A stretch of 24,523 nt of DNA from a virus, in IMG/VR virus record IMGVR_UViG_3300021420_000116, positions 1 to 24,523 of that record; one strand, written 5' to 3'. The notes beneath the pieces are model-generated. The model did no database searches and was not told the DNA's origin. It saw nothing but the letters and a program-made list of their open reading frames with translations. Positions 2,028-21,860 of this stretch are shown here, one piece after another (positions within the stretch are counted from its first letter, which is position 1; every line of letters starts with the position of its first letter). A program made the position numbers and the translations under genes.

Positions 2028-2507
2028 TCAACACGCAAGCCCTCGGATGACAGACGCCGTGTTAAACTTTTCATGGAAGCACGGCTTTCCGTATCGCGTT
2101 GCTTGATTACAATTCCAGCAGAGAAGTCGGAACCTATCAGGGAATCCTTCGTTCATTATGTCTCGCAAAACTCCCCATTGACTTCTCCCGCGCCGATGCT
2201 CCATTCCAGACCTATCGGCATGGTCAATACAAAGAGCCGCTTCGTCCATTTCACCGCAGCACGCGCATTTGTTACCGTAAGCCTCCAAGACCAATTTTCT
2301 AATCTTGAAGATGGTCAACCGATTTTCTCGATACCGCGTCAAGGCTTTCTCTCTTCCGATGGCGTCGTACCGAGTTTTCAGAATGCGCCTACTGCAAGTC
2401 AAACACGGACTGGTGAAATATCGCTTGCCTTTGGAATCTACACGCGTCACAAATTCTTCCAGAGGCTTTTCTTCTTCACATAGGGTGCAGCGTTTCAGTT
2501 CGCTCAT
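2028..2507 (-). CDS. HNH endonuclease (EndoVII-like fold), free-standing homing-type
   Basis: 159 aa. The N-terminal zinc ribbon has CTLC (7-10) and CLTC (35-38). The C-terminal treble-clef HNH core has CACCG (81-85), IDHAD (94-98, with the Asp-His of the active site), LLCWNCN (128-134, Cys pair plus final Asn) and CFH (143-145). This arrangement is known from recombination endonuclease VII-like HNH proteins, which cut DNA and often act as homing endonucleases in phages. The gene sits between two virion genes with only 16 bases to the upstream stop. It has no good Shine-Dalgarno site; a TAACAT box lies 7 bases before the ATG. Six other homing-type genes occur in the window. Confidence 0.88.
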   Translation of the reverse strand: MSELKRCTLCEEEKPLEEFVTRVDSKGKRYFTSPCLTCSRRILKTRYDAIGREKALTRYRENRLTIFKIRKLVLEAYGNKCACCGEMDEAALCIDHADRSGMEHRRGRSQWGVLRDIMNEGFPDRFRLLCWNCNQATRYGKPCFHEKFNTASVIRGLAC

Positions 2508-2514
2508 AAACCCT

Positions 2515-2520
2515 ATGTTA
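2515..2520 (-). promoter_or_regulatory. Possible -10 box (TAACAT) for HNH gene
   Basis: TAACAT lies 7 bases before the ATG at 2507, which would put the transcript start at or very near the start codon. It fits a TANNNT leaderless -10 pattern, but no -35 element is recognisable. The box lies just past the end of the upstream virion gene. Confidence 0.3.
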
Positions 2521-2523
2521 TCA

Positions 2524-3030: not shown

Positions 3031-3045
3031 GAAACTCTCCTTGTC

Positions 3046-3537
3046 CTACTGAATCGTTTCCTTTGGGTTCGGAGGAAGTGGTGCTCCGACAAATGCTTCC
3101 TCTGGAAGTTCTCTTTTTAGCCGCTTTAATTCTCCTTGGTAATGACGGCGGAGCAGGCTCGTTTCATTCGTAAGGTCCTGTAGCGGAGTTCGCCCCTTAA
3201 CGTGATCGAATGTCTTGCGATAGACGAGGGCTATTTCCGCCTGCTCTTTCTTCAATAGGAAATATGGTAGGCATCCACGTAGGATTAGCTCAGCCTTTTT
3301 AGATTGTAAAACCCACGTGTAAACCCTTCGACCATTCTTCCGAATTGCATTACTGTCGCTCGCATACAACTGTCCACCGAAAACATCCTTGCACCAAATT
3401 GGAAGGCGCGGGTCAGTGTTGGCGATGCGAATGAAGAGTTGGGTGTATTTGACCTTATATGACTTGATGACGATTGTTCCCTCGCCATCAATAAAGGCCG
3501 CGAGTCGTGCCCAATCAATTTGCGTAGGTTCCATCAT
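3046..3537 (-). CDS. LAGLIDADG homing endonuclease (single-motif)
   Basis: About 163 aa, the size expected of a single-motif LAGLIDADG enzyme that works as a homodimer. The signature helix is LAAFIDGEGTI (residues 12-22), with the acidic Asp-Gly-Glu centre. Downstream, FIRIANTDPRLPIWCKDVFGG and the YTWVLQSKKAELILRGCLPYF segment match the usual DNA-binding beta-sheet and helix pattern. It sits 25 bases after the capsid gene stop. Two consecutive ATGs (3537 and 3534) are possible starts. There is no Shine-Dalgarno site, but TAAAAT precedes them by 3 and 6 bases, so the second ATG fits a leaderless start better. Confidence 0.9.
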   Translation of the reverse strand: MMEPTQIDWARLAAFIDGEGTIVIKSYKVKYTQLFIRIANTDPRLPIWCKDVFGGQLYASDSNAIRKNGRRVYTWVLQSKKAELILRGCLPYFLLKKEQAEIALVYRKTFDHVKGRTPLQDLTNETSLLRRHYQGELKRLKRELPEEAFVGAPLPPNPKETIQ

Positions 3538-3540
3538 TCC

Positions 3541-3546
3541 ATTTTA
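3541..3546 (-). promoter_or_regulatory. TAAAAT -10-like box of the LAGLIDADG gene
   Basis: TAAAAT is preceded by TTGTTGG and followed after 6 bases by the second ATG of the endonuclease. The same box at the same distance occurs before the two plus-strand HNH genes. No ribosome-binding site lies between the box and the start codon. Confidence 0.4.
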
Positions 3547-3562
3547 CCAACAACCACCACTG

Positions 3563-4567
3563 TTACGATAGTGTAGTAAGAGCTATTTGACCGATTGGTC
3601 TATTGCATCCAAGCTGACAAATGAGATGAATGCGCGAAGTGATGACATCTTGGTTAGAGGGCATAATCCAAGGGGTCATTCTGAAATATGAACCCATGTT
3701 ATACACCATCCAGATATACTTAGTATTAAGTAAATACCCCGTGCCTGCCGGGAAGTGCTGGTCCGCGAGCACGACCGCGTTCTTGAACCGCATGTGGTAG
3801 CGGAACGAAGTCTGGATCGGGGCCGTATCCGCGTAATTGTCCGAAGCGCGGATGATGGTCGTCGAAGCCGCAGAACTGGAATTTTGCGTGAACGCCGACT
3901 CGAAGTTCGCAAAATCGGCGTTGTTCAGGATCAACAGGTTCGGCTCGTCATAGCCGTACGTCGCCTGGAAGTACGGAACGAGGAGCTTCGCCGGGGTTAA
4001 GTGACCGCCGATGGCGGAGTTCGCTTGTGGCTGCCAGAAGGTGTTCGTCGAGCGGTTGATCCCGGCAATCGTGTTCGTGGTCGAAAGGACCCAAGAATTG
4101 ATCGAGTCGAGGTCCGTCGAGGAGTTGAACGGCGAGTTACCGGCTACGGCCTCGGCCAGCATGTCGAGCATCGAACCAGCGGCAGCCTGCACGTAGGTCT
4201 TTACGAGATCAAGACCCACCGGCCCACCGCGCCCGATCACGATGTCCATGACCGGCAGCGTGGTCGCTTGGAAGTAACCGCGCCACACCTGATCGGCAGG
4301 CTGAATCGCGTCGATTGCCGAGGTCGGCAAAAGCTGATCGCCCCAATAGGAGCCGCGAGTCGTGATCTTGGTCGTCAAGAGCGGATAGACGATTTCCGCT
4401 CCGGCGTTGTATTTCTTCGCGTACTGGTTCAGGAACGAAAATGTCGGACTCGGCTGAAAAACCAAATCTGCGATTTTCGGAAAGACCAATTTCTGAGCAA
4501 TCGACGAAAGTGTATTAACCAGTAATGCAGAAGGTTGGTTAATACCAGTTCCGACTGTGAGCGCCAT
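3563..4567 (-). CDS. Major capsid protein
   Basis: 334 aa. Length, position directly after a scaffold-like gene, and composition fit a phage major capsid protein: an N-terminal helical arm (LVNTLSSIAQKLVFPKIADL), a P-domain-like central part with a long helix near GLDLVKTYVQAAAGSMLDML, and a mixed beta C-terminus with QDVITSRIHLICQLGCNRP. I assign it by context and general look, not by a diagnostic motif. A strong AGGAGAGTCAG precedes the ATG. Both ends of the gene are much poorer in GC (38-43% in 60-base blocks) than its middle (55-65%), and homing endonuclease genes abut both ends. Confidence 0.82.
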   Translation of the reverse strand: MALTVGTGINQPSALLVNTLSSIAQKLVFPKIADLVFQPSPTFSFLNQYAKKYNAGAEIVYPLLTTKITTRGSYWGDQLLPTSAIDAIQPADQVWRGYFQATTLPVMDIVIGRGGPVGLDLVKTYVQAAAGSMLDMLAEAVAGNSPFNSSTDLDSINSWVLSTTNTIAGINRSTNTFWQPQANSAIGGHLTPAKLLVPYFQATYGYDEPNLLILNNADFANFESAFTQNSSSAASTTIIRASDNYADTAPIQTSFRYHMRFKNAVVLADQHFPAGTGYLLNTKYIWMVYNMGSYFRMTPWIMPSNQDVITSRIHLICQLGCNRPIGQIALTTLS

Positions 4568-4579
4568 CTGACTCTCCTA

Positions 4580-5137
4580 TTAGCCCGCGATAGCTCGCAG
4601 ACCGTCGTCCTCGACAATTGAGATTTTCTTCTGCAACCGCTTGGATTCGTGGGGACAGATGCCAAAAATACCCTTTGCCCAATTGCAGTTACAACACAGA
4701 AGTTGGTACCTGTCCTTCGGAAAACCTTGGTCCCTGATTGACTTGTACACACCACGGATTCCGACTTCGGCACGATGTTGTTTCCCGTCTCCGTGGATAT
4801 GGTCAATGGTTAGAAATTGTTCTTCGGTTTCTCCGCAACACGTACACTTATTGCCGTAAGCGGAAAATACCTTTGCTTTCAGGGCAGCCTGATAGCGATT
4901 CTTGGCATCCCTTCGAGCGGTCCAAAAGGCGGGATCATCTTTGTGTGCTTCCCGATACTTCGCCATGTTCGCAAGCATGATTTCTTTGTTGTCCCGGTAA
5001 TACTGCTTGCGATACGCAATCTGGTCATCCCGAGTGGCTTCGTAATGCCTCTGCACTCGGGCCTTTATGCGCTCACTGTGTTTTTTGTAGTATTCGCGCA
5101 TATATTGTTTCTTTTCTTCGTTGTACGGTCCACTCAT
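4580..5137 (-). CDS. HNH endonuclease (EndoVII-like) with helical N-terminal repeats
   Basis: 185 aa from the chosen ATG at 5137, which has GGAGG 8 bases before it; the frame is open to a TTG at 5152 and contains another ATG at 5143 that abuts the GGGG. The N-terminal about 90 residues are charged, helical repeats (YYKKHSERIKA, HYEATRDDQIAY, YYRDNKEIMLANM). The HNH core has CTCCGE, LTIDHIHGDGKQHR with the catalytic Asp-His, LLCCNCNWAKG and CPHES. It is inserted between scaffold and capsid genes, 13 bases from the scaffold stop and 12 from the capsid start. The ribosome-binding site is inside a hairpin, as reported for some T4 homing endonucleases. Confidence 0.88.
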   Translation of the reverse strand: MSGPYNEEKKQYMREYYKKHSERIKARVQRHYEATRDDQIAYRKQYYRDNKEIMLANMAKYREAHKDDPAFWTARRDAKNRYQAALKAKVFSAYGNKCTCCGETEEQFLTIDHIHGDGKQHRAEVGIRGVYKSIRDQGFPKDRYQLLCCNCNWAKGIFGICPHESKRLQKKISIVEDDGLRAIAG

Positions 5138-5139
5138 CG

Positions 5140-5159
5140 GCATCCCCTCCAAGGGATGC
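5140..5159 (-). promoter_or_regulatory. Hairpin sequestering the HNH ribosome-binding site
   Basis: Perfect 7-bp stem GCATCCC (5140-5146) with GGGATGC (5153-5159), loop of 6 bases. On the minus strand the GGAGG of the HNH gene falls in the loop and 3' arm, 2 bases before the ATG at 5137. A TATAAA lies just upstream (5163-5168). If the RNA starts before the stem, the site is masked. Confidence 0.5.
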
Positions 5160-5162
5160 GCT

Positions 5163-5168
5163 TTTATA
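5163..5168 (-). promoter_or_regulatory. Possible -10 box (TATAAA) before HNH hairpin
   Basis: TATAAA overlaps the stop codon of the scaffold gene and lies just upstream of the hairpin over the HNH start. A transcript from it would begin near the first base of the stem. No convincing -35 is seen, so this is a weak call. Confidence 0.25.
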
Positions 5169-5973
5169 CCACACCCGTCTGCTCGATAAGTGCTCTCAAA
5201 TCAGGGTCTTTGAGGGCTTCGGTGTACAAATCTCCGAGAACGTCGGTGTCGGGAGTGATCTTCCGATTCGTTGGCTGTGGCCCCTGTCCCATTCCCGAGA
5301 CTCCGGGAGCCGTAACGCGAGCCGCCATCGCTTCCATCCGACCCTCTTCCCGGCCCTTTTCGAGAGCTTCCTGCTTCAGGCTTTCGAGCCGGTCGGTTTC
5401 CGACATCTTGTCCCACGCCAGCCGCACAGACGGCATTCCGTCCGTATCGACAATCTTGTTTTCTTGGGCGTATTTCAGGATTTCGTCACGGGTGGGTTTC
5501 TTCTCACGCTTGCCGAAGTTCAGGCCGCTGTATTCGCGGTCCCATTCCCGGCGCATGAAGACCTGAGCCGCTTGCGCGAGCGTCATTTGCTGTGTTTTGA
5601 CCAGATTAGTCAATTCTTCGAACTTCTTGTCGCGCTCTCCGAGAGCCGTCTTGACCGGAGCAAGCCACGGATCGGCAAATGGGTCACTTCCGGGATCGGC
5701 CTGCCGCGTAGTCGCCTTCTTTCGGGCTTCTTCGGCGGCGTCATACGCCTGCTGCGCCTTCTGCGCCAGTTCGACAACGGACTGTTGCCTCGTTTGGAGG
5801 TCCTTTTCCTTCGCTTCAACCCCCTGCATTCGTTCGGAAAGTGACTGCCGCTCGGCAGAGTTTAGTTGCCGGAGGGACCCCAATGGAATTTCCGTATCCC
5901 CGATGCGAATCGGTGTGGCGTCGGGATATTCCTTGGCGGATTCGAGAAACTTTTTGATCTGATCGACGGACAT
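5164..5973 (-). CDS. Capsid assembly scaffolding-like protein
   Basis: 269 aa, highly charged, with a long predicted coiled coil over residues about 40-95 (SERMQGVEAKEKDLQTRQQS, then AQKAQQAYDAAEEARKK) and a second helical, Glu/Lys-rich region near 180-215. Composition and position directly upstream of the capsid gene, now interrupted by an HNH gene, match phage scaffolds, which template procapsid assembly and are then released. No protease motif is seen. AAAGGAGAAAGG precedes the ATG. The C-terminus is small and acidic (LRALIEQTGVV). Confidence 0.75.
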   Translation of the reverse strand: MSVDQIKKFLESAKEYPDATPIRIGDTEIPLGSLRQLNSAERQSLSERMQGVEAKEKDLQTRQQSVVELAQKAQQAYDAAEEARKKATTRQADPGSDPFADPWLAPVKTALGERDKKFEELTNLVKTQQMTLAQAAQVFMRREWDREYSGLNFGKREKKPTRDEILKYAQENKIVDTDGMPSVRLAWDKMSETDRLESLKQEALEKGREEGRMEAMAARVTAPGVSGMGQGPQPTNRKITPDTDVLGDLYTEALKDPDLRALIEQTGVV

Positions 5974-5988
5974 AAAATCCTTTCTCCT

Positions 5989-6426: not shown

Positions 6427-6429
6427 ACA

Positions 6430-6612
6430 TTACTCTTTCGAACTCGGACCAATGTTCCGAGGTTTCGCATCCTTCGGTAGAACGCCCATCGGATCGGTGC
6501 GCATGTCCGCTTCGGCAACGCCGCCGTAATCAATCGGACCCTCGGCAGCGCCCTTGGGTGGCTGAACTTCATAGGGCGAATCAAAAACTGAAAAGTGGTC
6601 GCCTTTTGCCAT
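6430..6612 (-). CDS. Small late-operon protein, function unknown
   Basis: 60 aa, hydrophilic and proline-rich (SPYEVQPPKGAAEGPIDYGG), without cysteines, membrane segments or known motifs. The ribosome-binding region GGAGGTAAGGA lies 6-13 bases upstream of the ATG and decides this frame over another 60-aa frame starting at 6584. Its stop overlaps the region of the next gene's start. Its upstream region is shared, over 32 bases, with the divergent HNH gene at 6645. Confidence 0.55.
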   Translation of the reverse strand: MAKGDHFSVFDSPYEVQPPKGAAEGPIDYGGVAEADMRTDPMGVLPKDAKPRNIGPSSKE

Positions 6613-6633
6613 GATTTTTCCTTACCTCCGTTG

Positions 6634-6639
6634 TAAAAT
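6634..6639 (+). promoter_or_regulatory. TAAAAT -10-like box of plus-strand HNH gene
   Basis: TAAAAT is preceded by CGTTG and followed by 5 bases and then the GTG start at 6645. No ribosome-binding site is seen for this gene. On the other strand the same bases lie just upstream of the GGAGG of the 60-aa gene. Confidence 0.4.
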
Positions 6640-6644
6640 TCATC

Positions 6645-7052
6645 GTGCCCAATTCACACTCCACGCCCGAATACCAGAGAGAATGGAGGCGCAGAAATCC
6701 CGCTAAAGTGGCTGAATATGAAAGGAAATCGTATCAACGGCGGAGAGAGATGGCCGCTCAACCGCATAGAAAAGCAACCAAAAAACGGAACTGGAAAAAC
6801 TGGTATCGAGAGAATTTCCAGAGGGTTTCTGAGCGTCAAAAAATTAGAAGAAAAGAATCCCCTGAGAAATTCAGCGCCAGGAACGCCGTCAATCATACAC
6901 TCGCAGGCGGAGCGCTCACTCGCCCCGATCACTGCTCTAAATGCGGCAAGAAATGTAGACCGCAAGGCCATCATCACCGTGGATACGACTTCCCACTTGA
7001 TGTTGTGTGGCTCTGTTCGACCTGTCATGGCATTGAGCATCGGAAGCGCTAA
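6645..7052 (+). CDS. HNH endonuclease, antisense to the late operon
   Basis: 135 aa from GTG. The N-terminal 80 residues are basic helical repeats (EWRRRNPAKVAEYERKSY and similar), likely DNA-contacting. The C-terminal core has CSKCGKKC, a GHHHRGYDFPLDVVWLC segment (first His of the HNH pair) and STCHGIEHR (the second metal and catalytic end). This pattern is well known in phage HNH genes. The gene is opposite to the surrounding virion genes, and its TAA overlaps the stop of the 67-aa gene. It is a paralogue of the gene at 7474-7851: 33 of 56 C-terminal residues are identical by eye. Confidence 0.85.
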   Translation: MPNSHSTPEYQREWRRRNPAKVAEYERKSYQRRREMAAQPHRKATKKRNWKNWYRENFQRVSERQKIRRKESPEKFSARNAVNHTLAGGALTRPDHCSKCGKKCRPQGHHHRGYDFPLDVVWLCSTCHGIEHRKR

Positions 7053-7252
7053 CTCCGTTTATGTCCGTTCTTCATAAACCCAACCCGATCTTCCGGGAGG
7101 CTATTGAAGAGAACATCGCCGTAATCCGCGTCTCCGGCCATAATCTCTTCGTTGAACGGGGATTCCAGGTACGAATCCTCGGTGGTTTGGATGTTCCGGT
7201 CGATCTGCTCTACGTCAATCCGATTGTTTCGACCATTCCGTGTATCGGGCAT
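7049..7252 (-). CDS. Small acidic late-operon protein, function unknown
   Basis: 67 aa, hydrophilic, with an acidic middle (EEIMAGDADYGDVLFNSLPEDR has its charges clustered near residues 35-55). No motif is recognised. The start is well supported by AGGAG 6 bases before the ATG. The stop (TAG) overlaps the stop of the convergent HNH gene by 3 bases. It continues the late operon on the minus strand between two antisense HNH genes. A longer overlapping plus-strand frame (7061-7516) lacks a start signal and is probably a shadow. Confidence 0.6.
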   Translation of the reverse strand: MPDTRNGRNNRIDVEQIDRNIQTTEDSYLESPFNEEIMAGDADYGDVLFNSLPEDRVGFMKNGHKRS

Positions 7253-7467: not shown

Positions 7468-7473
7468 CAGCCC

Positions 7474-7851
7474 ATGCCACAAGCTGCTGAATCGCAACGA
7501 GATTGGCGAAAAATAAATCCAGGAAAAACACGCGAATATTACGAGCGACAAAGATTGCTTCATCCTGGAAAGGCTGCTGAACAACACAGAGAATGGAGCA
7601 AAAATCATCCAGAAAAAATCCTGGAGAAGAAACGTAAAGCATGGAGAGAGCACCCTGAAAAAATCAAAGCTCAAAATGCTGTTCACTATGCTATTCGTGT
7701 CGGTAAACTCGTAAGGCCAACAAAATGCTCCAAATGCTGTATAGAATGCAAACCGCATGGCCATCACTATCGCGGCTATGCCTTCAAACTCGATGTCGTG
7801 TGGCTTTGTGTTATGTGCCATGCTGCTGAACATAGGCCTCACCGAGATTAA
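7474..7851 (+). CDS. HNH endonuclease, second antisense copy
   Basis: 125 aa. The N-terminus contains three basic repeats with a W/Y...HPEK or HPGK core (EYYERQRLLHPGK, EWSKNHPEKI, AWREHPEKI). The catalytic part has CSKCCIEC, a GHHYRGYAFKLDVVWLC segment and VMCHAAEHR. It is clearly related to the HNH gene at 6645 but diverged in the N-terminal repeats. Local GC is about 42% (7561-7620), below the virion genes. Its TAA overlaps the stop of the minus-strand 27-aa peptide (TTAA shared), just as its paralogue overlaps the stop of the 67-aa gene. Confidence 0.86.
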   Translation: MPQAAESQRDWRKINPGKTREYYERQRLLHPGKAAEQHREWSKNHPEKILEKKRKAWREHPEKIKAQNAVHYAIRVGKLVRPTKCSKCCIECKPHGHHYRGYAFKLDVVWLCVMCHAAEHRPHRD

Positions 7852-8184: not shown

Positions 8185-8208
8185 GCAGGACAGATTGGGG
8201 TATGCTGC

Positions 8209-8409
8209 TTACTTGGTCAATCCGTTGGGTTTACTCTGTTCACTTTGTTCGTTGCTTGTTTCGCACAGAAACCATTGGCCTTTTGGGTCTTTTCGAATGC
8301 GAAAACCCAAATGCAATATAAATCCATCCTTGCACCATCGCTTAATGGTTACGGAATGCTTACCGTATCGACGGGCGATTTCTGAAACTGGAACCCATTC
8401 TGACATCAT
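8209..8409 (-). CDS. Small helix-turn-helix protein (MerR/excisionase-like)
   Basis: 66 aa. Residues about 7-28 form a helix-turn-helix: VPVSEIARRYGKHSVTIKRW, followed by a wing-like CKDGFILHLGFRIRKD and GQWFL. This pattern is typical of excisionase/AlpA and MerR-type winged helices that bind DNA. Its ATG overlaps the portal stop (ATGATG with TGA inside), so it is translated with the portal. In a late operon it might be a DNA-packaging or regulatory factor; a small terminase role is only a possibility. Confidence 0.72.
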   Translation of the reverse strand: MMSEWVPVSEIARRYGKHSVTIKRWCKDGFILHLGFRIRKDPKGQWFLCETSNEQSEQSKPNGLTK

Positions 8410-10136
8410 CGGGGCCTTTTAAGTTTCGCCACGGCAGCAAGTTCCTGGGCGTGTTGCGCATCCTCGGCTAGTTGTTCTGCTTGCGGGAGTCCAAGAGTCT
8501 CGAAGATGAACTTCGGAGGCAATGCTCCAGTCTTCGAGAGCGCCATGACCAGATTCTTCATCATGGACGAAGACACCGCTTGGAGCGTAACCGCATCAAG
8601 TTCCAAGTCACACTCCGCCGCATCGGGAACCGGCAGCCACGAACACGATTTCTGCTTCCCGCGTTGCGGCATCATCGTGTCTTCTTGCCGCTTGAACTTC
8701 GCCATCGTGTAGAAAACCATTCGAGCAAGCCGCTGATATGATTCGGCGAGCAAGCGGGCCTTCATCCGAACGAATGTCTGCCCCTGAAAGACAGCGGCAT
8801 CAAACAGTTCCGGAGAAATGTTTCCCCCTCCCGCTTGCCCTTGCCGCTCGGCTGTGCTTCCCGAGTACCGCGCAACCTTCTGAAGCAGAACTTCGGGTAT
8901 CTGCGTCATGTGCTGCGGAATGGCCGGTGGGGAACTCATGGTCGGAGGCTTGTCCCCGTCGTACACCTGCACTTCTCCCGGCAACCCGCCGTAGGCATCA
9001 ATGTCGATGTTCGAATCCCGAGGAATCCAGCACTGCACATTGTTCGTGCGGATCATGTTTTCGATCAACTGCGTGTACATGCGTTCCGCAATATCCTGGG
9101 GAGACTTAACGTAACGAACGGGAGGAGGACCGTAAATACTGTCAAGGTGAGGCATAGACCAAATACCGACAAAAGGAAAAGTTCCGAAATCATCTTCAGG
9201 CAGCCGAGGAATGAAATTCGGCCCATCGGCGAGGATGATCCCGTTGCACTCGACGATGAATCGGCCATTTGGAAATCTCCACTTAAACTTCGGCTGGACT
9301 ATGAGTTCGAATCCCTCTCCAGCCTTAACCCCTGCAATTTCTTCCACTCGATCTCGGGCATAATCCTTAACCCAAGCGTACCGTACACGCACACGAGGTC
9401 CGTTCCTTTGATGCTCGAAACCTTCCGGGGCATCGACCCGAAGAGGTCCCGGAGGAAGTTCCATCGAAAGGTCGAACCGGGAACCTTGTGTTTCGTCGTC
9501 TTCGTAGTCATCGTACCCTCCGCCGATCTTTACGTATTTCCCTTTGTCCGGGAACATGCGCCGGATTTCATCGACGTAGAAGTACCTCTCGGCGACGACG
9601 TAACCCCAGGTTCGGTCATCCTTGGCGTGAGGGTCGGGGAAGATTGTCGAAGGGTCCACTGCATCGAGCCAAACCATGCCCTTGCCGTTTCGAGCGTCGG
9701 GGTTATACCCAAGCCAAAGCCAACTTGGATTCGTCAACTGCGCCCAAAACACAGCATCGAAGATACGGTTATTGAACATCCCGAGCCGCCATGCCGCTGA
9801 AAACGCCTTCTCCCGCTGCTCATCGGCCTTGCCATCGACCGAAATGTAGATTTTCGGGGTATCGTTCGTTAAATCCGTGGCTTCGCAGAGAGCAAGAAAC
9901 TGCGCTTCGGGGAGGGTAACACGGGGACGGAAGGAAGGGGTTGATGCGCTCGGGTAGTACGTCAAGTTGTAAAAATTCTTCATGTCGGCAATGTGATTGC
10001 CGCCCTGCTTCTGCTCCCGTTCCTGCGTGGACATCCGAACGAGTTCGTCAATTTGCTTCGAAATCTTCTTGTCGCCGGGGACGGCGGTGGTTTTCTTCTC
10101 GTCAGTCAGAATCGCCGGGAAGTAGGTGACGGACAC
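8406..10136 (-). CDS. Portal protein
   Basis: 576 aa. Size, composition and position two kilobases after the terminase fit the dodecameric portal through which DNA enters the head. Visible portal-like features are an N-terminal helical region, AVDPSTIFPDPHAKDDRTWG (near residues 160-180, the common DP...I.PDP turn), a conserved-looking ERMYTQLIENMIRTNN helix near 350, and a long helical C-terminus with IFETLGLP. It starts at GTG with GGAGA 7 bases upstream. It ends overlapping the HTH gene. The assignment is by general features and context. Confidence 0.85.
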   Translation of the reverse strand: MSVTYFPAILTDEKKTTAVPGDKKISKQIDELVRMSTQEREQKQGGNHIADMKNFYNLTYYPSASTPSFRPRVTLPEAQFLALCEATDLTNDTPKIYISVDGKADEQREKAFSAAWRLGMFNNRIFDAVFWAQLTNPSWLWLGYNPDARNGKGMVWLDAVDPSTIFPDPHAKDDRTWGYVVAERYFYVDEIRRMFPDKGKYVKIGGGYDDYEDDETQGSRFDLSMELPPGPLRVDAPEGFEHQRNGPRVRVRYAWVKDYARDRVEEIAGVKAGEGFELIVQPKFKWRFPNGRFIVECNGIILADGPNFIPRLPEDDFGTFPFVGIWSMPHLDSIYGPPPVRYVKSPQDIAERMYTQLIENMIRTNNVQCWIPRDSNIDIDAYGGLPGEVQVYDGDKPPTMSSPPAIPQHMTQIPEVLLQKVARYSGSTAERQGQAGGGNISPELFDAAVFQGQTFVRMKARLLAESYQRLARMVFYTMAKFKRQEDTMMPQRGKQKSCSWLPVPDAAECDLELDAVTLQAVSSSMMKNLVMALSKTGALPPKFIFETLGLPQAEQLAEDAQHAQELAAVAKLKRPR

Positions 10137-11637: not shown

Positions 11638-13384
11638 GACGGTCCCTCACCTTCGTTTTCGCGGCCTTCATAAACATCTTCATTTCCCGTTGGATCATTG
11701 GCCCGATTTCTTCCTTGATCGGCATTTCGAGGACCTGTTTCGGATTCTGCGGGTCCATCGTGTTTTTGGGGGCGTACTTCATCCGGGCTGGAGGGTATTG
11801 CTCACGCGTTAAACACGCTATCATCCAAGCGACAGCAATGTCGTCGTGTCCCCGAAGAATGTCCCACCGCCATTCCTTCACCGTCATCATCCCGAGTTGA
11901 TCCATTAAGGCTCGATCATTGATGACGAGTGCCCCTGGATCGGCTCGAAGTCCCATCCGGATTCCACTTCTCGCTGCATCGACGATCAATCGTCGCGTCG
12001 CCTGCGTCATTTCAAATCCGAGGGCTATGCTCCGGCTCTTGCCCTTCTTTCGGTCGTCTCGGCCCTTCCAGGTGTAGATGTTGGGGTACCGGTACTCGTC
12101 TCGAAGCTTGACGAGCGCCCACCGGCCCAGGTTTCCGGTCAGTTCCGGGTTTACCATAGCTCGATTGTAGTAGTGTCCGCACATATCGAGTTGATTCGCC
12201 AGAACTTCGGGGGCAATGCGTTCTGCAAAGCGGCAAGCAAGTTCACCGGTCTCTCCGCACAGACACGCATAAGCACAGAAGTCGCCCTCCTCAGTTCCAA
12301 GAGCAGCATCCGCTCCGATGTAGTAGTGCAGTCCATCCGGACGACCTTTTTCGTTGACGGGTCTCTTCCAAACATGGACAGGACCATTATCATCCTCGAC
12401 GAACTTAAAAGACGCACCTCCAGCCACACGCTGAAAAGACCCTCGGCAGAGTGGAGGTTTGACCGTGCTTTCCGCATAGGCCAGTTCTTCCCTCGGGAAA
12501 GCCGGGTAGCCCGATACTTGGAAGGCTACCGAGGGTGTGTGCGGAAAGTCTTGTAGGAATTTCGATTCGATGTTCCGACAGTCATCAGCTTTCGTTCGGC
12601 GCATCCAGGCAATTTGTTCCCTGGTCGCATTGAACGGAGCCTTCATTAGCTCCTTTTCGAGGTCATCCCGAGGCGCGTCTTCCGCCTCTTCTTCCGGACG
12701 AATGAAGGCCGGGTCTTCGAGCCACGATGCGAAGTTCGGGATGTATCCGTTTCGGCCCGCTACCGCTTCATCCCAATACTCGGCAAACGCGGCTCCTGGC
12801 CCTTCCCGGCCATTGGCCGTCGATTCAATGATTATCATGCTTCCCGGACCCTTCGATACCGAAGAGATCATGGCCGTAAAAATCTCGTCATCAGGGTACG
12901 AAGCGGCCTCGGACAGATGGAGTGCGGAGAGCGTACCTCCGCGCCCCGCCGATGGAGTGCCAGCGGTCGCAACCGTCAAATGGCTGTCTCCACTCGGATG
13001 GCGGAAGTAAATCTTCTTTTGCTGGATGTCTTCGAGCGGAAAGTTCGGGAATCCTCGGGATAGATCGCCCGGAACACGAAACAATTCCTCGGCGCTCGTC
13101 GCAAGGTGGGCGACGATCTTCATGTTCATATTTGCGAACCCGAGGCCCCGACTCCAAAAAATACCTTCGGTTTGAGACGAGAATCCCACACGGCGACTTT
13201 TGAGGTCGATGATCCGGATATGCCCCTCTTTACGCCATTGCTCCCGCATCCGCTGGAACCGCTTCTCCTGGCTAGGAAAGAAGTGAAACGGGGTCATTTG
13301 ATTGTGTTCGCGGTCTTTGATCGGGAGGCGAGACAGTAATACGCGAGACCGATCCATCCAACTCGGATCGTTCGCTTTAGGCAT
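11624..13384 (-). CDS. Terminase large subunit
   Basis: 586 aa, normal length for the DNA-packaging ATPase-nuclease. The ATPase has a terminase-type Walker A, LKSRRVGFSS (61-70, deviant P-loop), a Walker B-like LSALHLSEA (152-160, with Glu159) and the coupling motif IIIESTANG (184-192). The nuclease has GADAALGTEEGDF (358-369, Asp359 and Asp368), NPELTGNLG (412-420, Glu414) and RGHDDIAVAW (511-520, Asp514-Asp515), consistent with an RNase H-like fold. The enzyme translocates DNA through the portal and cuts the concatemer. The ATG overlaps the preceding stop by 8 bases. Confidence 0.95.
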   Translation of the reverse strand: MPKANDPSWMDRSRVLLSRLPIKDREHNQMTPFHFFPSQEKRFQRMREQWRKEGHIRIIDLKSRRVGFSSQTEGIFWSRGLGFANMNMKIVAHLATSAEELFRVPGDLSRGFPNFPLEDIQQKKIYFRHPSGDSHLTVATAGTPSAGRGGTLSALHLSEAASYPDDEIFTAMISSVSKGPGSMIIIESTANGREGPGAAFAEYWDEAVAGRNGYIPNFASWLEDPAFIRPEEEAEDAPRDDLEKELMKAPFNATREQIAWMRRTKADDCRNIESKFLQDFPHTPSVAFQVSGYPAFPREELAYAESTVKPPLCRGSFQRVAGGASFKFVEDDNGPVHVWKRPVNEKGRPDGLHYYIGADAALGTEEGDFCAYACLCGETGELACRFAERIAPEVLANQLDMCGHYYNRAMVNPELTGNLGRWALVKLRDEYRYPNIYTWKGRDDRKKGKSRSIALGFEMTQATRRLIVDAARSGIRMGLRADPGALVINDRALMDQLGMMTVKEWRWDILRGHDDIAVAWMIACLTREQYPPARMKYAPKNTMDPQNPKQVLEMPIKEEIGPMIQREMKMFMKAAKTKVRDRLVGI

Positions 13385-15433: not shown

Positions 15434-16108
15434 TCAAGTCCAAAGACAAGATTTTTGCTCCGGATGCCGGTCAAATTCCTCCCCGCAGCCATTACAGGCC
15501 GTCCCTTCGCCGACAAGCACCGTGGACGTACTGCCACACTTCGGGCACGGTTTGCCCATGTTCTTTCGGGTCCGGAAAAAGTAGTGGTAAAGCACCTTCC
15601 CGACGTAGCGTTCCGTTTTCAGAACATTACGGGCACGCATTCGATCAGCCCAACGAACGTCCTCTCCGTGCCCGCCTTCCATTGGTTCGAGGAGAGCTAA
15701 GTCCCGTCGAATCGGGTTGATATGCGAAATGTCACGGTAGAAGCCTGTTTCGTCTTCATACCAGCCCTCGTATCGAAGTGAGTGATGGGTCAGCTTGCCG
15801 AGCTTCTTCCCGTCGATATAGCACTGCACGTCGAATCCAACGTAGTCCACGCCTCGTACCAGTAGAGGCAGGATGGTGTCCACATAGTCGTCCGGAACCA
15901 AATCGTCATCATCGACAAAGCAGATGTATTGCCCTTCCGAGGCTCGACGCAGCATGTCCCGGTTCTCGCCGAGCGTGTAGGCCGGGTCACACATCCGAAT
16001 CAGCACACTGGCGTCTCGATGATCGAGTTGCCGGTCGAGTGTTTTGTACAGGCGCTTCAGAAATTCCATGCGCGTCGGCATGGTCAGGCAGAGGAGTTGA
16101 AGTTTCAT
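15434..16108 (-). CDS. GT-A glycosyltransferase with C-terminal zinc ribbon
   Basis: 224 aa from the ATG at 16108, which overlaps the upstream stop (ATGA). The N-terminus is a family-2-like GT-A fold: LLCLTMPTRMEFLKRL, then ICFVDDDDLVPDDYVD (62-77) with the acidic cluster that binds metal and nucleotide-sugar. MEGGHGEDVRWADRM may hold the catalytic acidic residue. Residues 188-212 are a zinc ribbon: CPKC, a VGEG turn, CNGCGEEF. A ribbon with the same pattern ends the neighbouring glycosyltransferase. The sugar and acceptor are unknown. Confidence 0.85.
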   Translation of the reverse strand: MKLQLLCLTMPTRMEFLKRLYKTLDRQLDHRDASVLIRMCDPAYTLGENRDMLRRASEGQYICFVDDDDLVPDDYVDTILPLLVRGVDYVGFDVQCYIDGKKLGKLTHHSLRYEGWYEDETGFYRDISHINPIRRDLALLEPMEGGHGEDVRWADRMRARNVLKTERYVGKVLYHYFFRTRKNMGKPCPKCGSTSTVLVGEGTACNGCGEEFDRHPEQKSCLWT

Positions 16109-16926
16109 CGTATAAATTCTTGGCCGCAAGCATTGCAGAAAAACTTTCCGAGTCCAACCGTGACCGTCGATAGACTCTCGCACTTCGGACACATCCCGGC
16201 GCTCCGAATATTGTTGTGCGGCGGGCACCAACCCTTCGTGCTGAGAGTCTTGTCCATCAGCTTTGCGAGTTTCATGGCGTCCCGGTACCGCTCGGATGCC
16301 ATTTCGGAACTGTAATACAAAACCTCGGGATTGTCCTCTTGATGCCGCTGGAGCCGCTCCTTTGTGTTTTCGTCCACCTCGACCATGCCCTGAGAGAAAT
16401 GATAGTGTTCTACGTTGAAAGGCAGGAATCTCCGGCGACCGAGGATGTTCGCTATTTCACAAATCCAAGCATCGCCGAAATCAGATGAGAAATAGGGCGG
16501 GATGAAATATCCTAAAGTTTCAACCCATTTACGGTGTACGAAAGCATGAGGACCGAAGTTGCTGCCGTGACCGAAGACATCCGACCCGTGCGCCAGCATA
16601 ATCTTGTCGGGAACTTCAGAGAACGCTTTTTCGATAATCGCGTCCCATCCCTTTGTAGTGAACACAATGTCGTCATTGGTTTGCTGAAAAATGTCCCCCG
16701 TGGCTAGGAGTAAAATCTCATTCCATGCTTGTGTAATTTTCCGAATCCGTGGACCAACTTTATATCGAAGCCCCAGTTCTTGAGCGACCGGAACACTCAG
16801 TTCATCATCCGTGTCGATATAGACCACAACCTCCACTTCGCTATCGGCAGTTTTACGCACCGATTCGACCATTCGCCGTAATTCCTTCGGGCGTTTCCGA
16901 GTCGGGAGAAGCAGACTGATACTCAT
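16105..16926 (-). CDS. GT-A glycosyltransferase-like protein with C-terminal zinc ribbon
   Basis: 273 aa from ATG 16926, overlapping the preceding stop (ATGA). The GT-A-like domain has SISLLLPTRKRPKELRRMV, VVVYIDTDDE (34-42), a QAWNE helix and TGDIFQQTNDDIVF (77-90) with the Asp pair expected at the nucleotide-sugar site. GDAWICEIANILGRR fits the acceptor side. The final 30 residues are a zinc ribbon (CPKCES at 246-251, FFCNACGQEF at 262-271) almost superimposable on that of the next gene. The ribbon might aid binding of nucleic acid or a protein partner. Confidence 0.82.
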   Translation of the reverse strand: MSISLLLPTRKRPKELRRMVESVRKTADSEVEVVVYIDTDDELSVPVAQELGLRYKVGPRIRKITQAWNEILLLATGDIFQQTNDDIVFTTKGWDAIIEKAFSEVPDKIMLAHGSDVFGHGSNFGPHAFVHRKWVETLGYFIPPYFSSDFGDAWICEIANILGRRRFLPFNVEHYHFSQGMVEVDENTKERLQRHQEDNPEVLYYSSEMASERYRDAMKLAKLMDKTLSTKGWCPPHNNIRSAGMCPKCESLSTVTVGLGKFFCNACGQEFIR

Positions 16927-17900
16927 GCCGACCTCTCGATTTCGTAGTGGGGCCGAACATTCGCAACAGAGAACGCCGCCCTTGCAATGGCTCGACTGTA
17001 CATACTGCATGTCCTAGCAAAATTAATGTTTTCGAAACATTGATCGAGAAATCTTTCGATTTGGTTCAGATTGTCGGCTGCAACCCCATTGCCGTCGATA
17101 TAGCCCATATAGGAGAGTCCCGGCAGGTCCCGAGCCACCACCGGCATACCGGCTGCCAAAGCCTCGGTAAACGACGTACAGAGGGGCCTACCGCCATGAC
17201 CATCAAGATTCACGAACACCCGATACTGGCTAAACATTTCGGCCATTTGCTTCGAGGTTTTGAACTCCATTGCCCCATCGTGGTGGTGCATCCGTCCCGG
17301 AAAGCGTTCCGAGAGTCGTTCGAAGAGGTCAACCCCACAGACCGATTTGTCTGCCGGTCGCCACAGGTCCTTCCCGGCAAGCACAAAGAGCGCCTCTTCC
17401 CGGATGCCAGTCCATTCCCGCTCGAACCACCAGTCGCCCACCGGCACCGGAGCAAACTCGGCTTGGGGATAGACCGACTTCCAGGCTGGAACAATCGACG
17501 GCATCCCGATCTTGATTGGCACGCTCTTAATCTTCTCTTGGTAGTTCGATGGCAGGGAGGACGGATTATCGAACCAGCACACGAAGACCAGAATCGGGCA
17601 TTCGACTCGATGACAATGATTCTTCCAGTCGGCGGCATAGTTGAAAGTTTCGACCGATTCGATCAACAGGTCGAATTTCGAGAAATCACACTCCGAGTAC
17701 GGCTTCTCTTCGAAATGAATGTCGAGGCCCACTTCTTGCCATTCCTTCACTCGATCATTCGCCTTCGCCAGCGGTAGAATCCGCTTGTCCCATTTATAGA
17801 GATCATCGCACGGAGGACCAATGACGGTGAGACCGGGAAACAGAGTTGCCATCTTCTCGCACAATGCCCCGACTGTCGGATAGAGGAGAGCCACTTTCAC
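16923..17900 (-). CDS. GT-B glycosyltransferase (family 4/1-like)
   Basis: 325 aa from GTG at 17900, which overlaps the preceding TGA (GTGA). The N-terminus VKVALLYPTVGAL is a Rossmann-type start. The C-terminal half shows the GT-B donor-site pattern, with YRVFVNLDGHGGRPLCTSF and TEALAAGMPVVARDLPG, the Glu-rich loop that holds the nucleotide-sugar. It likely transfers a sugar from an activated donor; substrate unknown. It is in a tight operon with two other transferases. Confidence 0.82.
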   Translation of the reverse strand: MKVALLYPTVGALCEKMATLFPGLTVIGPPCDDLYKWDKRILPLAKANDRVKEWQEVGLDIHFEEKPYSECDFSKFDLLIESVETFNYAADWKNHCHRVECPILVFVCWFDNPSSLPSNYQEKIKSVPIKIGMPSIVPAWKSVYPQAEFAPVPVGDWWFEREWTGIREEALFVLAGKDLWRPADKSVCGVDLFERLSERFPGRMHHHDGAMEFKTSKQMAEMFSQYRVFVNLDGHGGRPLCTSFTEALAAGMPVVARDLPGLSYMGYIDGNGVAADNLNQIERFLDQCFENINFARTCSMYSRAIARAAFSVANVRPHYEIERSA

Positions 17901-18607
17901 GTCGTTACCTCTGGCAAATGGATGTTGGCAAGTCCCCAATCGGGTTCATTCGTTTGCCCGATGAATCGGTGGATGTCCGAGGAGTGAATCGACATTCGGC
18001 CTTTGTGAACCGAACGATCGTGCTCTTGATGGTAGATCGGGAATGGCAGTTCGACCTTGTTCATGCCCGACTTTTCGAGCGTCCAGCAGAGCAGGGAATC
18101 GAGATGCGAATAGCTCACAAGGTCGAGATACCCGCCGAACGCGAACCACCGGCTCCTGTGCATCAGAATAAAGTCTCCCGGACCGTGGCAGATTTGTACC
18201 AGATTCCCGTCCCGGATGTCATGCCGAGGGGCTGTGTAGAACGAGGTTTCGTACAAGTTCCCGTACAGGCATTCCCGAATCTCGGAACTGAGTAGGATGT
18301 CGGGATTCATGCACAGCACCCATTCGCCTGCCGACCGCCGAATCCCCACGTTTTTAGCCCGATATTCGAAGAACGGCAGCCAGTCGTGGCCGTGCATTTG
18401 GCTGTGCAAGTCTCGGGGAACCGTGATGACCCGAACCCCGTGATACTTGATCTCGGAAGCGAGCGGAGGTCGATCCTCGGGAGGGTTCCATTCGACCATG
18501 ATGATTTCTGCATCGGAGGGAAGCGTTTCAAACGAGCGGTTCATCCGGTCGATGAAGTCTCCGGCGTGTTGATCGTTCCGGCCCGCTAAAACTACAGACA
18601 GATTCAC
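17897..18607 (-). CDS. GT-A glycosyltransferase (family 2-like)
   Basis: 236 aa starting at GTG, which overlaps the HNH stop (GTGA). It begins MNLSVVLAGRNDQHAGDFID, as in GT-A proteins acting on nucleotide-sugars. EIIMVEWNPPEDRPPL and GEWVLCMNPDILLS (about 103-116) carry the acidic N-P-D at the metal site. YHQEHDRS near residue 195 could be a C-terminal His motif. It is most likely a glycosyltransferase; the donor is unknown. Confidence 0.8.
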   Translation of the reverse strand: MNLSVVLAGRNDQHAGDFIDRMNRSFETLPSDAEIIMVEWNPPEDRPPLASEIKYHGVRVITVPRDLHSQMHGHDWLPFFEYRAKNVGIRRSAGEWVLCMNPDILLSSEIRECLYGNLYETSFYTAPRHDIRDGNLVQICHGPGDFILMHRSRWFAFGGYLDLVSYSHLDSLLCWTLEKSGMNKVELPFPIYHQEHDRSVHKGRMSIHSSDIHRFIGQTNEPDWGLANIHLPEVTT

Positions 18608-19197
18608 TGAATCCCCAACGCAACTCTCATTACGTTTGCATCTTCTTCGGGAACTATTCCACGCATCAATTTATCTTTGGCTTTGTCGGGATGCTTTCGC
18701 ACCCACCTAGCGATGGCCGCTTTCCTGCCTTCTAGTTGTAGCTGTTTAGGTATCGGAGTGAAATCTGGCCTATAGCCAGGACGGGGACGACGGTTGAAAT
18801 CTTGGGGCCAAATTCCTTTATGATACCAGCGGCGAAGAGTTTCTTCGTGGATGCCAAGCCTGTCAGCCCAATCCTGCAAGATCATAGTTTCGCTACCTAC
18901 TGTGATGCGAATATTCTTCCTCTCATTTCGCGTCTGTTCCCATCGGTTAGCCCACTTACAATTCTGAGGTTCATAATTCCCATTATTGTCGATGCGTTCT
19001 AATGTTCCACCTTTGGGCTGTTTACCCATATCTTCTAGAAAATTGACGAACTTCCCCCATCTCTCACAGATGGCTATTCCCCGCGCTCCATAATTTTTAT
19101 AGTAAGGATTGTTTGGATTACGACACCGCTGTCTCATGCTGTTCCATGTGGCATAGGTAGGATTTTTCTGACTGCATCCGTGCGATCTTGGAGGCAT
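18604..19197 (-). CDS. HNH endonuclease with C-terminal DNA-binding region
   Basis: 197 aa from the ATG at 19197, which overlaps the radical SAM stop (TAATG); an upstream ATG at 19239 would add 14 residues inside that gene. The nuclease core has KNPTYATWNSMRQRCRNP, YGARGIAICERW and LERIDNNGNYEPQNCKWA, which is the well-known phage HNH layout (R-G-I, then the D-N-N-G-N-Y helix, then the Asn-Cys-Lys-Trp end). A helix-turn-helix-like part follows (LQDWADRLGIHEETLRRWYH), typical of homing enzymes that bind an extended site. It ends overlapping the next glycosyltransferase start. It is less GC-rich than the genes beyond. Confidence 0.9.
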   Translation of the reverse strand: MPPRSHGCSQKNPTYATWNSMRQRCRNPNNPYYKNYGARGIAICERWGKFVNFLEDMGKQPKGGTLERIDNNGNYEPQNCKWANRWEQTRNERKNIRITVGSETMILQDWADRLGIHEETLRRWYHKGIWPQDFNRRPRPGYRPDFTPIPKQLQLEGRKAAIARWVRKHPDKAKDKLMRGIVPEEDANVMRVALGIQ

Positions 19198-20558
19198 TAG
19201 CGATTCGCCAGTCGTAGAGAGATATTTTCTGTAATCCATTGGTGGAGCATATGGCGAGCATCGAACAATTCCGTTTTTGTCATTGTCGGAAGATCAAGAA
19301 CAATTGTTTTAGGATCGGAATCATCTAATTCCCACATAGCAGAAAATGTATCTGGCAAAATAGTAACACCGAACTTATTGGGGTTATTCCAAACCTCACA
19401 CCCTGGATATGGTTGAAACATATGTAGACTGGCCGCATCTGGTCGCACTTTATCCAACCAAGTCTGCATTTCATAGATAGATTCCCAGGTTTCACCGGGG
19501 AATCCAATAAGCAAATAGGCGCGAGCGACAATTCCTGCATCTTGGCAAATCCCGATACCTTTTTCGTTTGCTTCTGGAGTAGTTCCTTTTTGCATCGCTT
19601 TTAGCATTCTGGCGCTGCCATGCTCAACCCCAAAACCCATCTCCGTACACCCCTTTGTAGCTAGGTATTTGTACAGATCGGCGTCCATTAAATTAACTCT
19701 ACTCCAACCGCGCCAGAGCATTCCGTAGTCATGGAAAAGTGCAGCTAATTCCCGACACCGTTTTGCTTTGATAGTCAATACATCATCCCAAATCCGTAGA
19801 GCCGTAATGCCAAGTTCTGCCAAGGCCTTCACTTCCGCTTCTATTTGATCGAGGGTTTCGTCTCGCAATTTAGTTCTTGCATCAGCGCAAAAAGAGCACG
19901 CATACGGGCATCCCCTAGAACACCACAGGGAGCCTATCTTCCGTTCCTCGGCATCAATGGATTTTCCCGACTTGCTCTCTACTTGTAGGCCCCCCGAAGA
20001 GTAATGTTCCCAAAGATCATAAGCTGGCAGTTTTAGTTTCGTCACATCGGGAAGTGGCGGCGATGGGTAAAGCTGATGCACTCCGAAGGCATCAAACCAC
20101 GTCACTCCCGGTACTCGGGTTACGTCCCCGCCCGCCTGCCATAGATTACAGAACTGGACGAACGATTCCTCGCACTCGCCGGTCATCAGGAAGTCGAACC
20201 CTTCGAAATACTTCTTCTGCTTGAACTGCGCATGGGGACCGTCGATGATGTACGTCACATGCGGTCCACCGGCAACCTTAACCTTCGCAGGCCAGAGCGC
20301 GGCTAGTTGCCCTCCAAACTCGGCATTCGGAGTGACAATGGAAACGCCCAAGATGTCACAGGGTTCCATTTGGTCGGGATCGACGCGGAGTTTGTTCGCT
20401 TCGGCATCGAAGGTGCTGATTTTGTGGCAGTCGATGATTTTGACTTCATGCCCCGCTTCTCGAAGCGCCGAGGCGAGGTAGAGCAGGCCGAGCGAGGCGT
20501 GCAGGCTCGGATTGAACAGCGCGAAGGACGGGCCGCCAGCTAGGATGACTTTTGCCAT
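19197..20558 (-). CDS. Radical SAM protein with N-terminal B12-binding-like domain
   Basis: 453 aa. Residues about 1-150 form a Rossmann-like B12-binding-type domain (VILAGGPSFALFNPSLHASL, CDILGVSIVTPNAEF, AGGPHVTY). The common D-x-H-x-x-G cobalamin motif is not intact (DCHKIS), so cofactor binding is uncertain. The radical SAM core has CPYACSFC (C217, C221, C224), which ligates the 4Fe-4S cluster, and GVEHGSARMLKAMQKG and LLIGFPGETWE, typical of this superfamily. It could methylate or otherwise alter a substrate in the sugar cassette. It has GAGGAG before the ATG. GC falls toward its 3' end, next to the HNH gene. Confidence 0.88.
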   Translation of the reverse strand: MAKVILAGGPSFALFNPSLHASLGLLYLASALREAGHEVKIIDCHKISTFDAEANKLRVDPDQMEPCDILGVSIVTPNAEFGGQLAALWPAKVKVAGGPHVTYIIDGPHAQFKQKKYFEGFDFLMTGECEESFVQFCNLWQAGGDVTRVPGVTWFDAFGVHQLYPSPPLPDVTKLKLPAYDLWEHYSSGGLQVESKSGKSIDAEERKIGSLWCSRGCPYACSFCADARTKLRDETLDQIEAEVKALAELGITALRIWDDVLTIKAKRCRELAALFHDYGMLWRGWSRVNLMDADLYKYLATKGCTEMGFGVEHGSARMLKAMQKGTTPEANEKGIGICQDAGIVARAYLLIGFPGETWESIYEMQTWLDKVRPDAASLHMFQPYPGCEVWNNPNKFGVTILPDTFSAMWELDDSDPKTIVLDLPTMTKTELFDARHMLHQWITENISLRLANR

Positions 20559-20566
20559 GCCACTCC

Positions 20567-21406
20567 TCAGAATTTGGAGGTCCCCGTTGTCGGACGTGGG
20601 GTCGTACCTACTGAGGCAGTAGTTGTCGCCGACGTTTTCGGGGACCGCAGTCTCGCCTTCACCAATAGATGATGGCCGAGGATGGATTCAAACGAACGGT
20701 GCGGAACAATGTTCCACGGGAACGCTTTCACATAACGGTGTTGGATGTAGTCATCGACCCGCCATTGAAAGATGTGCCGCTTCTCGATGCTTACGATTTC
20801 GAATCCACAGGTCTCCACGAGCCGCCTCGCTCCCGCCACAGAATACCACCGAACGAGTGGACAGTTCGACTGCGCTTCAGGCTGATGCCCCATCAGGCGC
20901 TTGTAGCTCCATTTGGCGTAGAGCATGATCCGAAGTTCGCCGTTCGGCTTCAGTAACTTGTGCGCATTCTGTAAGGCTGCTTCGGGATGCGGGGTGTGAT
21001 GGAGGACGCCGAAACTGTAGACGAGGTCGTAGGTGTTCCACTCGTTTGCCGTGAAGGGAAGCGGGTCTTCGATATTCCCCTCGTAGAATCCGATGTTCGT
21101 GTAGCTGTTGAGGGCCGCTCGCTTCATGGCAAGTTCGAGGCTGGCCTTTGAAATGTCCACGGCATCGACGTGCTCGGCAAACTTGGCGAATTGGAGCGTG
21201 TCCGTGCCGATGCCGCAGCCGAGTTCGAGTACTCGCTTTCCCTGCCAGTGCCGGAAATCGGCGAAGTCGGGGATGTGCGATTCGACCCAATACCGTCTGG
21301 TCGTCACTTGATGGGACCATAGCGCCGTACCGACTGGAGCCTCTCCGTGCCTTACGTTACAGGGCTGACGGTCGAAAAAATCACGCGTTCGCTCGATTAG
21401 ATTCAA
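20567..21406 (-). CDS. SAM-dependent class I methyltransferase
   Basis: 279 aa from a TTG at 21406 with AAAGG upstream. The frame opens further to an ATG at 21463, but that part lies inside the HNH gene. Motif I is RVLELGCGIGTDTLQF; VDAVDISKASLELAM provides the acidic residue that binds the ribose of SAM; GNIEDPLPF and DLVYSFGVLHHTPHPEAAL follow. The fold is that of small-molecule or sugar methyltransferases. A Thr/Ser/Pro-rich C-terminal tail (about 25 residues) has no motif. Start and ribosome-binding site lie in HNH coding sequence. Confidence 0.85.
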   Translation of the reverse strand: MNLIERTRDFFDRQPCNVRHGEAPVGTALWSHQVTTRRYWVESHIPDFADFRHWQGKRVLELGCGIGTDTLQFAKFAEHVDAVDISKASLELAMKRAALNSYTNIGFYEGNIEDPLPFTANEWNTYDLVYSFGVLHHTPHPEAALQNAHKLLKPNGELRIMLYAKWSYKRLMGHQPEAQSNCPLVRWYSVAGARRLVETCGFEIVSIEKRHIFQWRVDDYIQHRYVKAFPWNIVPHRSFESILGHHLLVKARLRSPKTSATTTASVGTTPRPTTGTSKF

Positions 21407-21860
21407 TCCAAACCTTTCTTTGTTTTGGTGGATTGTCGCTATTCCATTTTGATTTAACCGCACAACTCTTACCGCAGAATGGTCCAGTACTGCCGCGTTT
21501 TCTACGATACCTCAATCGAGCCATTTCTATTGACGATGGTTTATTGCACACAGGACAATTGAAACAAAATCTTGAATCTGACTTTACTCTCCGGAATGCA
21601 GATTTCGCTGCATTTTTCTGACGGTTTAGAATCTGAAGGTTATCTTCCGAATCGTTCGTTCGATCTTCGTCGATATGGTCAACTTCCTCTGACGGATCGA
21701 GCCATCGACATATCTTCTTAGTCATAATCCATCGGCTATAAAACATAGCACGGGTCTTTTGCCCATCTTTAACGACAATGAATTTACGTCCCTTATTTTT
21801 CTCGGTTCTATGGACGTACGGTCCCCAAACTTTCATATTGTCGAAATCAATTTTGTTCAT
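21381..21860 (-). CDS. HNH endonuclease with zinc finger, overlapping two genes
   Basis: 159 aa from ATG 21860; an ATG at 21875 and one at 21836 are alternatives. The nuclease has YSRWIMTKKICRWLDPSEEV, then VDHIDEDRTNDSEDNLQIL, the His-Asn-rich HNH core of the phage AP2/NUMOD4-linked type. A second metal site follows (FCFNCPVCNK, FCGKSCAVKSK). The start lies inside the end of the dehydrogenase gene. The stop lies inside the methyltransferase's upstream part, so it seems to have invaded the junction. Confidence 0.85.
   Translation of the reverse strand: MNKIDFDNMKVWGPYVHRTEKNKGRKFIVVKDGQKTRAMFYSRWIMTKKICRWLDPSEEVDHIDEDRTNDSEDNLQILNRQKNAAKSAFRRVKSDSRFCFNCPVCNKPSSIEMARLRYRRKRGSTGPFCGKSCAVKSKWNSDNPPKQRKVWIESNRANA

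Follow-up and report, generated by a model that had tools for sequence, protein, structure and literature searches.

Seven putative free-standing homing endonuclease genes of five families in the gene seams of a tailed-phage fragment

Introduction

When genes for homing-type endonucleases crowd a short stretch of phage DNA, the question is whether they serve the phage or move through it as selfish elements. The stretch that raises this question here (the window) is an entire IMG/VR virus record of 24,523 bases, a tailed-phage fragment with its genes mostly on the minus strand that, judging from its relatives, is evidently part of a ~55 kb genome. A preliminary description made from the letters of the window had reported one LAGLIDADG and six HNH genes with at least three HNH architectures, located in the seams between phage genes and on both sides of the capsid gene, and had called their density unusual and the region a natural case of endonuclease competition. 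The phage genes that serve as landmarks are as follows.

475-1734: tail-fibre-like gene
3563-4567, minus strand: major capsid protein gene (phrog_9953 major head protein, 1.8e-22)
5164-5973: scaffold-like gene
8406-10136: portal gene
11624-13384: terminase gene
about 15.4 to 22.7 kb: sugar/glycosyltransferase-like genes

Results

Relatives of the window

A search with the capsid protein returned 27 loci at 45-97% identity, including 10 on records 50-56 kb long, and further contigs were reached through the portal and a radical-SAM-like gene. Records reached through the loci are designated G001-G013; three contigs that recur below are IMGVR_UViG_3300021420_000371 (C371; L063, L072, L084), 3300021420_000092 (C092; L075, L086) and 3300021432_000187 (C187; L076), and L022 comes from metagenome 3300027867. 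Every sequence compared is a metagenome contig, and gene order is largely constant across the relatives. We found no named phage close to the window in DNA, only two matches of the capsid protein among GenBank phages (22-24% identical) and no relative of the portal protein among named phages. A provirus search of bacterial genomes for a host gave no hit, and neither introns (Rfam) nor tRNAs were found in the window.

Families of the seven nuclease genes

All seven genes were recovered as intact open reading frames, each starting where first proposed or no more than a few codons away; they represent five families and together cover 3,462 bases, or 14% of the window.

2028-2507, minus strand: H1, EndoVII-like HNH, seam g2524 / tail-fibre-like gene
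3046-3537, minus strand: LAG, single-motif LAGLIDADG, seam capsid / g2524
4580-5152, minus strand: H2, EndoVII-like HNH, seam scaffold-like gene / capsid
6645-7052, plus strand: H3, phrog_2340 zinc-HNH, seam g7049 / g6430
7474-7851, plus strand: H4, phrog_2340 zinc-HNH, adjoining g7049
18604-19239, minus strand: H5, phrog_3377 HNH with a C-terminal extension, seam radical-SAM-like / glycosyltransferase gene
21381-21875, minus strand: H6, HNH_3, seam UDP-glucose dehydrogenase-like / methyltransferase gene

PHROG profiles matched a nuclease family in every case: phrog_2255 (5.8e-15) and phrog_2633 'endonuclease VII' (2.4e-11) for H1, phrog_5046 (1.2e-15) for LAG, phrog_2255 (5.3e-7) for H2, phrog_2340 for H3 (1e-20) and H4 (3e-20), phrog_3377 (8.5e-47) for H5 and phrog_14913 (2.5e-20) for H6. 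Pfam by itself was weak: H6 alone passed a curated cut-off (HNH_3, 6.7e-6), H2 (Endonuclease_7, 0.0046) and LAG scored below theirs, and H1, H3, H4 and H5 had no Pfam nuclease match. The division into one LAGLIDADG and six HNH genes is thereby borne out, with four HNH families distinguished by profile.

The PHROG family of LAG is labelled 'HNH'. However, when its family profile was compared with the PDB, it matched I-MsoI and I-CreI (best E 4.2e-13, ~110 residues), and we therefore class LAG as LAGLIDADG; its motif reads LAAFIDGEG, with D17-G18-E19-G20 invariant in the family. I-CreI and I-MsoI are intron-encoded enzymes of algal organelles; LAG resembles them in its single LAGLIDADG motif but is free-standing in a phage seam.

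Proteins of the H1/H2 type share invariant C81, C84, D95, H96, C130, N132 and C133, that is, two CxxC zinc pairs around a DH motif followed by N, the arrangement of EndoVII. Both nevertheless fall under the Pfam Endonuclease_7 cut-off, a profile of the type found no EndoVII match in the PDB, and the predicted fold of H1 only weakly resembles the beta-beta-alpha-Me enzyme Hpy99I (E 0.18, not significant). In the H3/H4 type the invariant elements are CSKC, GHH, CxxCH and EHR, which make up a zinc-HNH core. The predicted model of H3 (pLDDT 87) combines a helical arm with such a small core. Significant matches were to models of viral HNH/EndoVII proteins (E 2e-8 to 5e-4) and none to the PDB. H3 and H4 are paralogues, 43% identical.

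All seven genes lie between intact genes, none within a self-splicing intron or intein. The proposed location in seams holds, except that H5 and H6 overlap the ends of their neighbours instead of occupying spacers. The capsid gene is indeed bracketed, with H2 upstream and LAG downstream, and H2 brings its own GGAG upstream of the capsid ATG.

Seams are occupied, empty or swapped among relatives

Among about 27 relatives compared, we found an intact junction lacking the gene for each of the seven, at the places where the preliminary description expected them. H1 is absent, its junction intact, from L002, G005 and L004. The capsid/g2524 seam is empty in L002, L004, G002, G003/G004, G007, G008 and G012 and holds LAGLIDADG genes in G001, G005, L008 and G013; the scaffold/capsid seam is empty in L002, G001-G006 and G008-G010 and holds EndoVII-like genes in L004, G007, L014, G012 and L022. 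H3 is absent from the near-identical L022 and has its nearest relative at the same seam of C371 (81% at the amino-acid level); genes of its family, phrog_2340, occupy the g7049/g6430 seam in G003, G005, G013 and C371. H4 is common to L022 (99%), with a diverged copy in G002, and its seam is empty in G001, G006, G007 and G008. The H5 seam is occupied in G007 and G013 and empty in G002, G004, G005, G006 and C371, and the H6 seam is empty, as an overlapping junction, in G001, G008 and C371. The seams are hot spots for such genes: the portal/g8209 seam carries EndoVII-type genes in G003, G005, L019 and L015, and seams of the glycosyltransferase region carry phrog_3377 or HNH_3 genes in G001, G005, G006, G007, G013 and C187.

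The ten relatives of at least 50 kb carry between zero and seven genes of the families searched (G001, 7, including a LAGLIDADG intein in the terminase; G005, 6; G007, 5; G013, 4; G002 and G008, 3 each; G004 and G012, 2 each; G006, 1; G009, 0), so that the same genes do not stand at the same sites in all. Neither does sequence similarity follow the phage. The H2-type genes, all at a single seam, show 34-41% identity in close and distant backbones alike (39% in L004, with a scaffold of 76%; 41% in G012, with a scaffold of 45%), and LAG is 75% identical to its counterpart in G005 but 48% to that in G001 (L003), though the capsid of G001 is closer. The patchiness of the nuclease genes does not follow the phage backbone.

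These distributions bear on whether some or all of the seven are conserved phage genes for packaging, recombination or junction resolution, in the manner of T4 EndoVII or of HNH genes beside the terminase. H1 and H2 do resemble EndoVII families, Skunavirus has one fixed packaging-linked HNH gene (PMC12724721), and the dN/dS of H3 between the window and C371 is 0.12 (backbone genes, 0.05-0.08; silent sites of LAG and H5 are saturated and give no usable ratio), from which we conclude that H3 has been kept functional by purifying selection. Set against this are the intact gene-free junctions for all seven, the failure of same-seam homologues to track backbone divergence and the 54-kb relative, G009, that has none of the families searched; we regard conserved roles as highly improbable. 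Because the same seams are empty or hold other nucleases in relatives, we instead interpret the seven as probable homing endonuclease genes of the free-standing kind, which would live as selfish elements in the seams of this tailed phage, and assign this sequence-based reading a probability of about 0.87.

How such genes would spread can be outlined as follows. Two related phages would co-infect one cell, and the nuclease of one would cut the genome of the other near a seam that lacks that nuclease gene; the break would then be repaired by copying in the gene and part of the DNA beside it, a process known as intronless homing with co-conversion. As genes of different families repeatedly invaded the same seams, replaced one another, decayed and were lost, even near-identical phages would come to differ in their patchwork. 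The cleavage, the target sites and the transfer during co-infection are steps that we infer.

The suggested endonuclease competition finds indirect support in seams whose nuclease varies from phage to phage, or where a putative DNA methyltransferase gene takes the place of the nuclease gene in some phages. At the gt17897/gt16923 seam, a gene that by eye is DNA methyltransferase-like is present in C092 (L075 8764-9396) and C371 (L072 4141-4803), and an HNH_3 nuclease gene is present in G001 and C187.

Probable footprints of movement in near-identical phages

L022 and the window are 98-99% identical over about 10 kb, apart from four main islands of divergence.

about 6480-7136: H3 and its flanks
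8188-8460: g8209 and the 3' end of the portal gene
10954-10987: in L022, an insertion of 566 bases with an HNH_3 gene; ~35 adjoining bases have diverged
11768-13376: terminase

The two nuclease genes by which L022 and the window differ both fall inside islands. A third phage, C371, is closer to the window than L022 is in three of the islands (H3, g8209 and terL). The g8209 and terL islands contain no nuclease gene in either the window or L022, and thus local replacement without a nuclease also occurs; at these sites, though, relatives do have an EndoVII gene or an intein. It is possible, though we consider it rather doubtful, that homing endonuclease genes, with the terminase intein, are the main engine of gene-level mosaicism in this lineage, driving the turnover of neighbouring alleles, including islands now free of nucleases (terL, g8209), and competing with DNA methyltransferases for seams.

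Within the g8209 island the window and L022 are 53-78% identical in 60-base bins, and the g8209 protein of the window is 97% identical to its C371 counterpart. The LAGLIDADG intein of G001 lies in frame in terL at about residue 283 (L003 2747-3793), and one is also present in C092 (L086); the terminases of the window and L022 have no intein, yet their alleles differ sharply near its insertion point.

Other near-identical contigs show similar breaks. G001, C187 and C092 share stretches of at least 1 kilobase at 100% identity but diverge at nuclease seams, and one H5-type gene is 100% identical in G001 and C187 together with ~130 and ~350 bases of its flanks, a block that sits between stretches of 95% and of 80-84%. 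When 100 bases were scored on each side of every seam in near-identical comparisons, flank identity was 79% where nuclease content differed (9 seams), 93% at other seams (25) and 99% where a nuclease or intein was shared. At the level of seams the Mann-Whitney P is 6.5e-4, a value that comes from few genomes, with G001 reused against three contigs and some events shared. Co-conversion of flanks is seen for H3 in the window, where the near-identical pair differs, and for other nuclease genes in relatives. At the GT341/SAM and gt16923/gt16105 seams of relatives the upstream flank is 95-96% identical and the downstream flank 61-68%; tentatively, this bias would be consistent with cleavage within the downstream gene, as with SegG of T4.

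Two further explanations can be weighed here. Were the genes ancestral, passively inherited and deleted in some lineages, one might expect what is seen in the truncated remnants of L015 and G002 and in the presence of H4 and H2 in both the window and L022. However, simple deletion leaves flanks similar, whereas those of H3 and of the L022 HNH_3 gene have diverged, and the H5-type gene of G001 and C187 shows recent shared import; inheritance with loss has in our view very little chance of being the explanation. Alternatively, assemblers, which fail at variable seams, could have joined variants there and produced false mosaics, a concern for a data set composed of metagenome contigs. We think this most unlikely, since combinations of gene and seam recur across separate metagenomes (the window shares H4 and H2 with L022 and H3 with C371; G001 and C187 share an identical H5-type gene), open reading frames are intact and gene order is constant.

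Conservation of the capsid gene reflects selection

The position of H2 and LAG on both sides of the capsid gene suggests another possibility, namely that the flanking nucleases mobilise it between lineages as the cargo of an island and so account for its conservation. Islands of this type have been proposed (PMC10448857), and the capsid protein is 84-97% identical in relatives whose other proteins are often at 45-75%. Nevertheless, capsid four-fold degenerate sites differ by 0.5-0.67 in most relatives and are nearly as saturated as those of portal, terminase and scaffold, which argues that the conservation stems from purifying selection and not from recent exchange; in the islands of ICP1-like and other phages, by contrast, cargo keeps high nucleotide identity. 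We give scarcely any credence to the cargo explanation, and homogenisation of the capsid gene by the flanking nucleases is ruled out by the saturated silent sites in the relatives compared.

Discussion

The phenomenon itself is already known, given the precedents in other phages. Of the 15 homing endonucleases of T4, 12 are free-standing; the 15 account for 11% of its coding potential, and co-conversion and marker exclusion are described for them (PMC2988022). Like the T4 seg and mob genes, which are intergenic, patchy, near essential genes and co-converted with their flanks (PMC2988022), the genes of the window stand between phage genes, but T4 spreads its 15 over a whole genome and uses GIY-YIG and HNH enzymes, whereas the window packs 7 putative ones into 24.5 kb (14% of bases), lacks GIY-YIG and has a LAGLIDADG gene. 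Skunavirus genomes carry 1-8 HNH genes at 11 recurring positions, some truncated, that are linked to exchange (PMC12724721); these are mostly of one I-HmuI-like class plus the fixed packaging gene, as opposed to the five families of the window, none of them fixed. For Xop411 the count is 8 in 44.5 kb (PMC2248197). Capsid and terminase genes of ICP1-like and other phages are bracketed by several families, with unstable seam content (PMC10448857). The free-standing homing endonuclease F-CphI of cyanophage S-PM2 has an EndoVII-type catalytic motif (PMC6083498), which H1 and H2 also appear to use, although F-CphI acts at the insertion site of the psbA intron. A literature search for free-standing LAGLIDADG genes in phages found no paper, which is not evidence of absence.

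The density of nuclease genes is accordingly high, as first described, but not unprecedented: relatives reach 6-7, G001 is about equal in the matching interval, and Skunavirus and Xop411 are similar. The window stands out for packing so many families into a short stretch, for an I-CreI-like LAGLIDADG gene that is free-standing and for footprints that are clear at the population level. Natural series of near-identical phages in which a site is occupied, empty or swapped offer a direct measure of how often homing endonuclease genes move and how much neighbouring DNA is dragged along, and of whether nuclease families exclude one another at a seam. The free-standing I-CreI-type gene is, in addition, a possible source of new site-specific nucleases.

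Other features of the window

Close to H1, a conserved hairpin on the minus strand (1941-2008; CTCCACTGGTCGGC...TACCAGT) precedes the tail-fibre-like gene. At least ten relatives have it as well as the window; of its 21 predicted pairs, 4 show compensatory changes, and it has no match in Rfam. H1 does not disrupt the hairpin, which lies intact a short way downstream of that gene. A cysteine-rich open reading frame of 61 codons (1735-1920, minus strand) lies between this hairpin and the tail-fibre gene, and the stretch that contains it is absent from L002 and G005.

Finally, the C-termini of two glycosyltransferase-like proteins (15434-16231 and 16105-17010) contain a zinc-ribbon-like motif, CPKC...CNACG, and a similar short zinc ribbon is encoded directly before the scaffold gene in G002, L008, G007 and G013.
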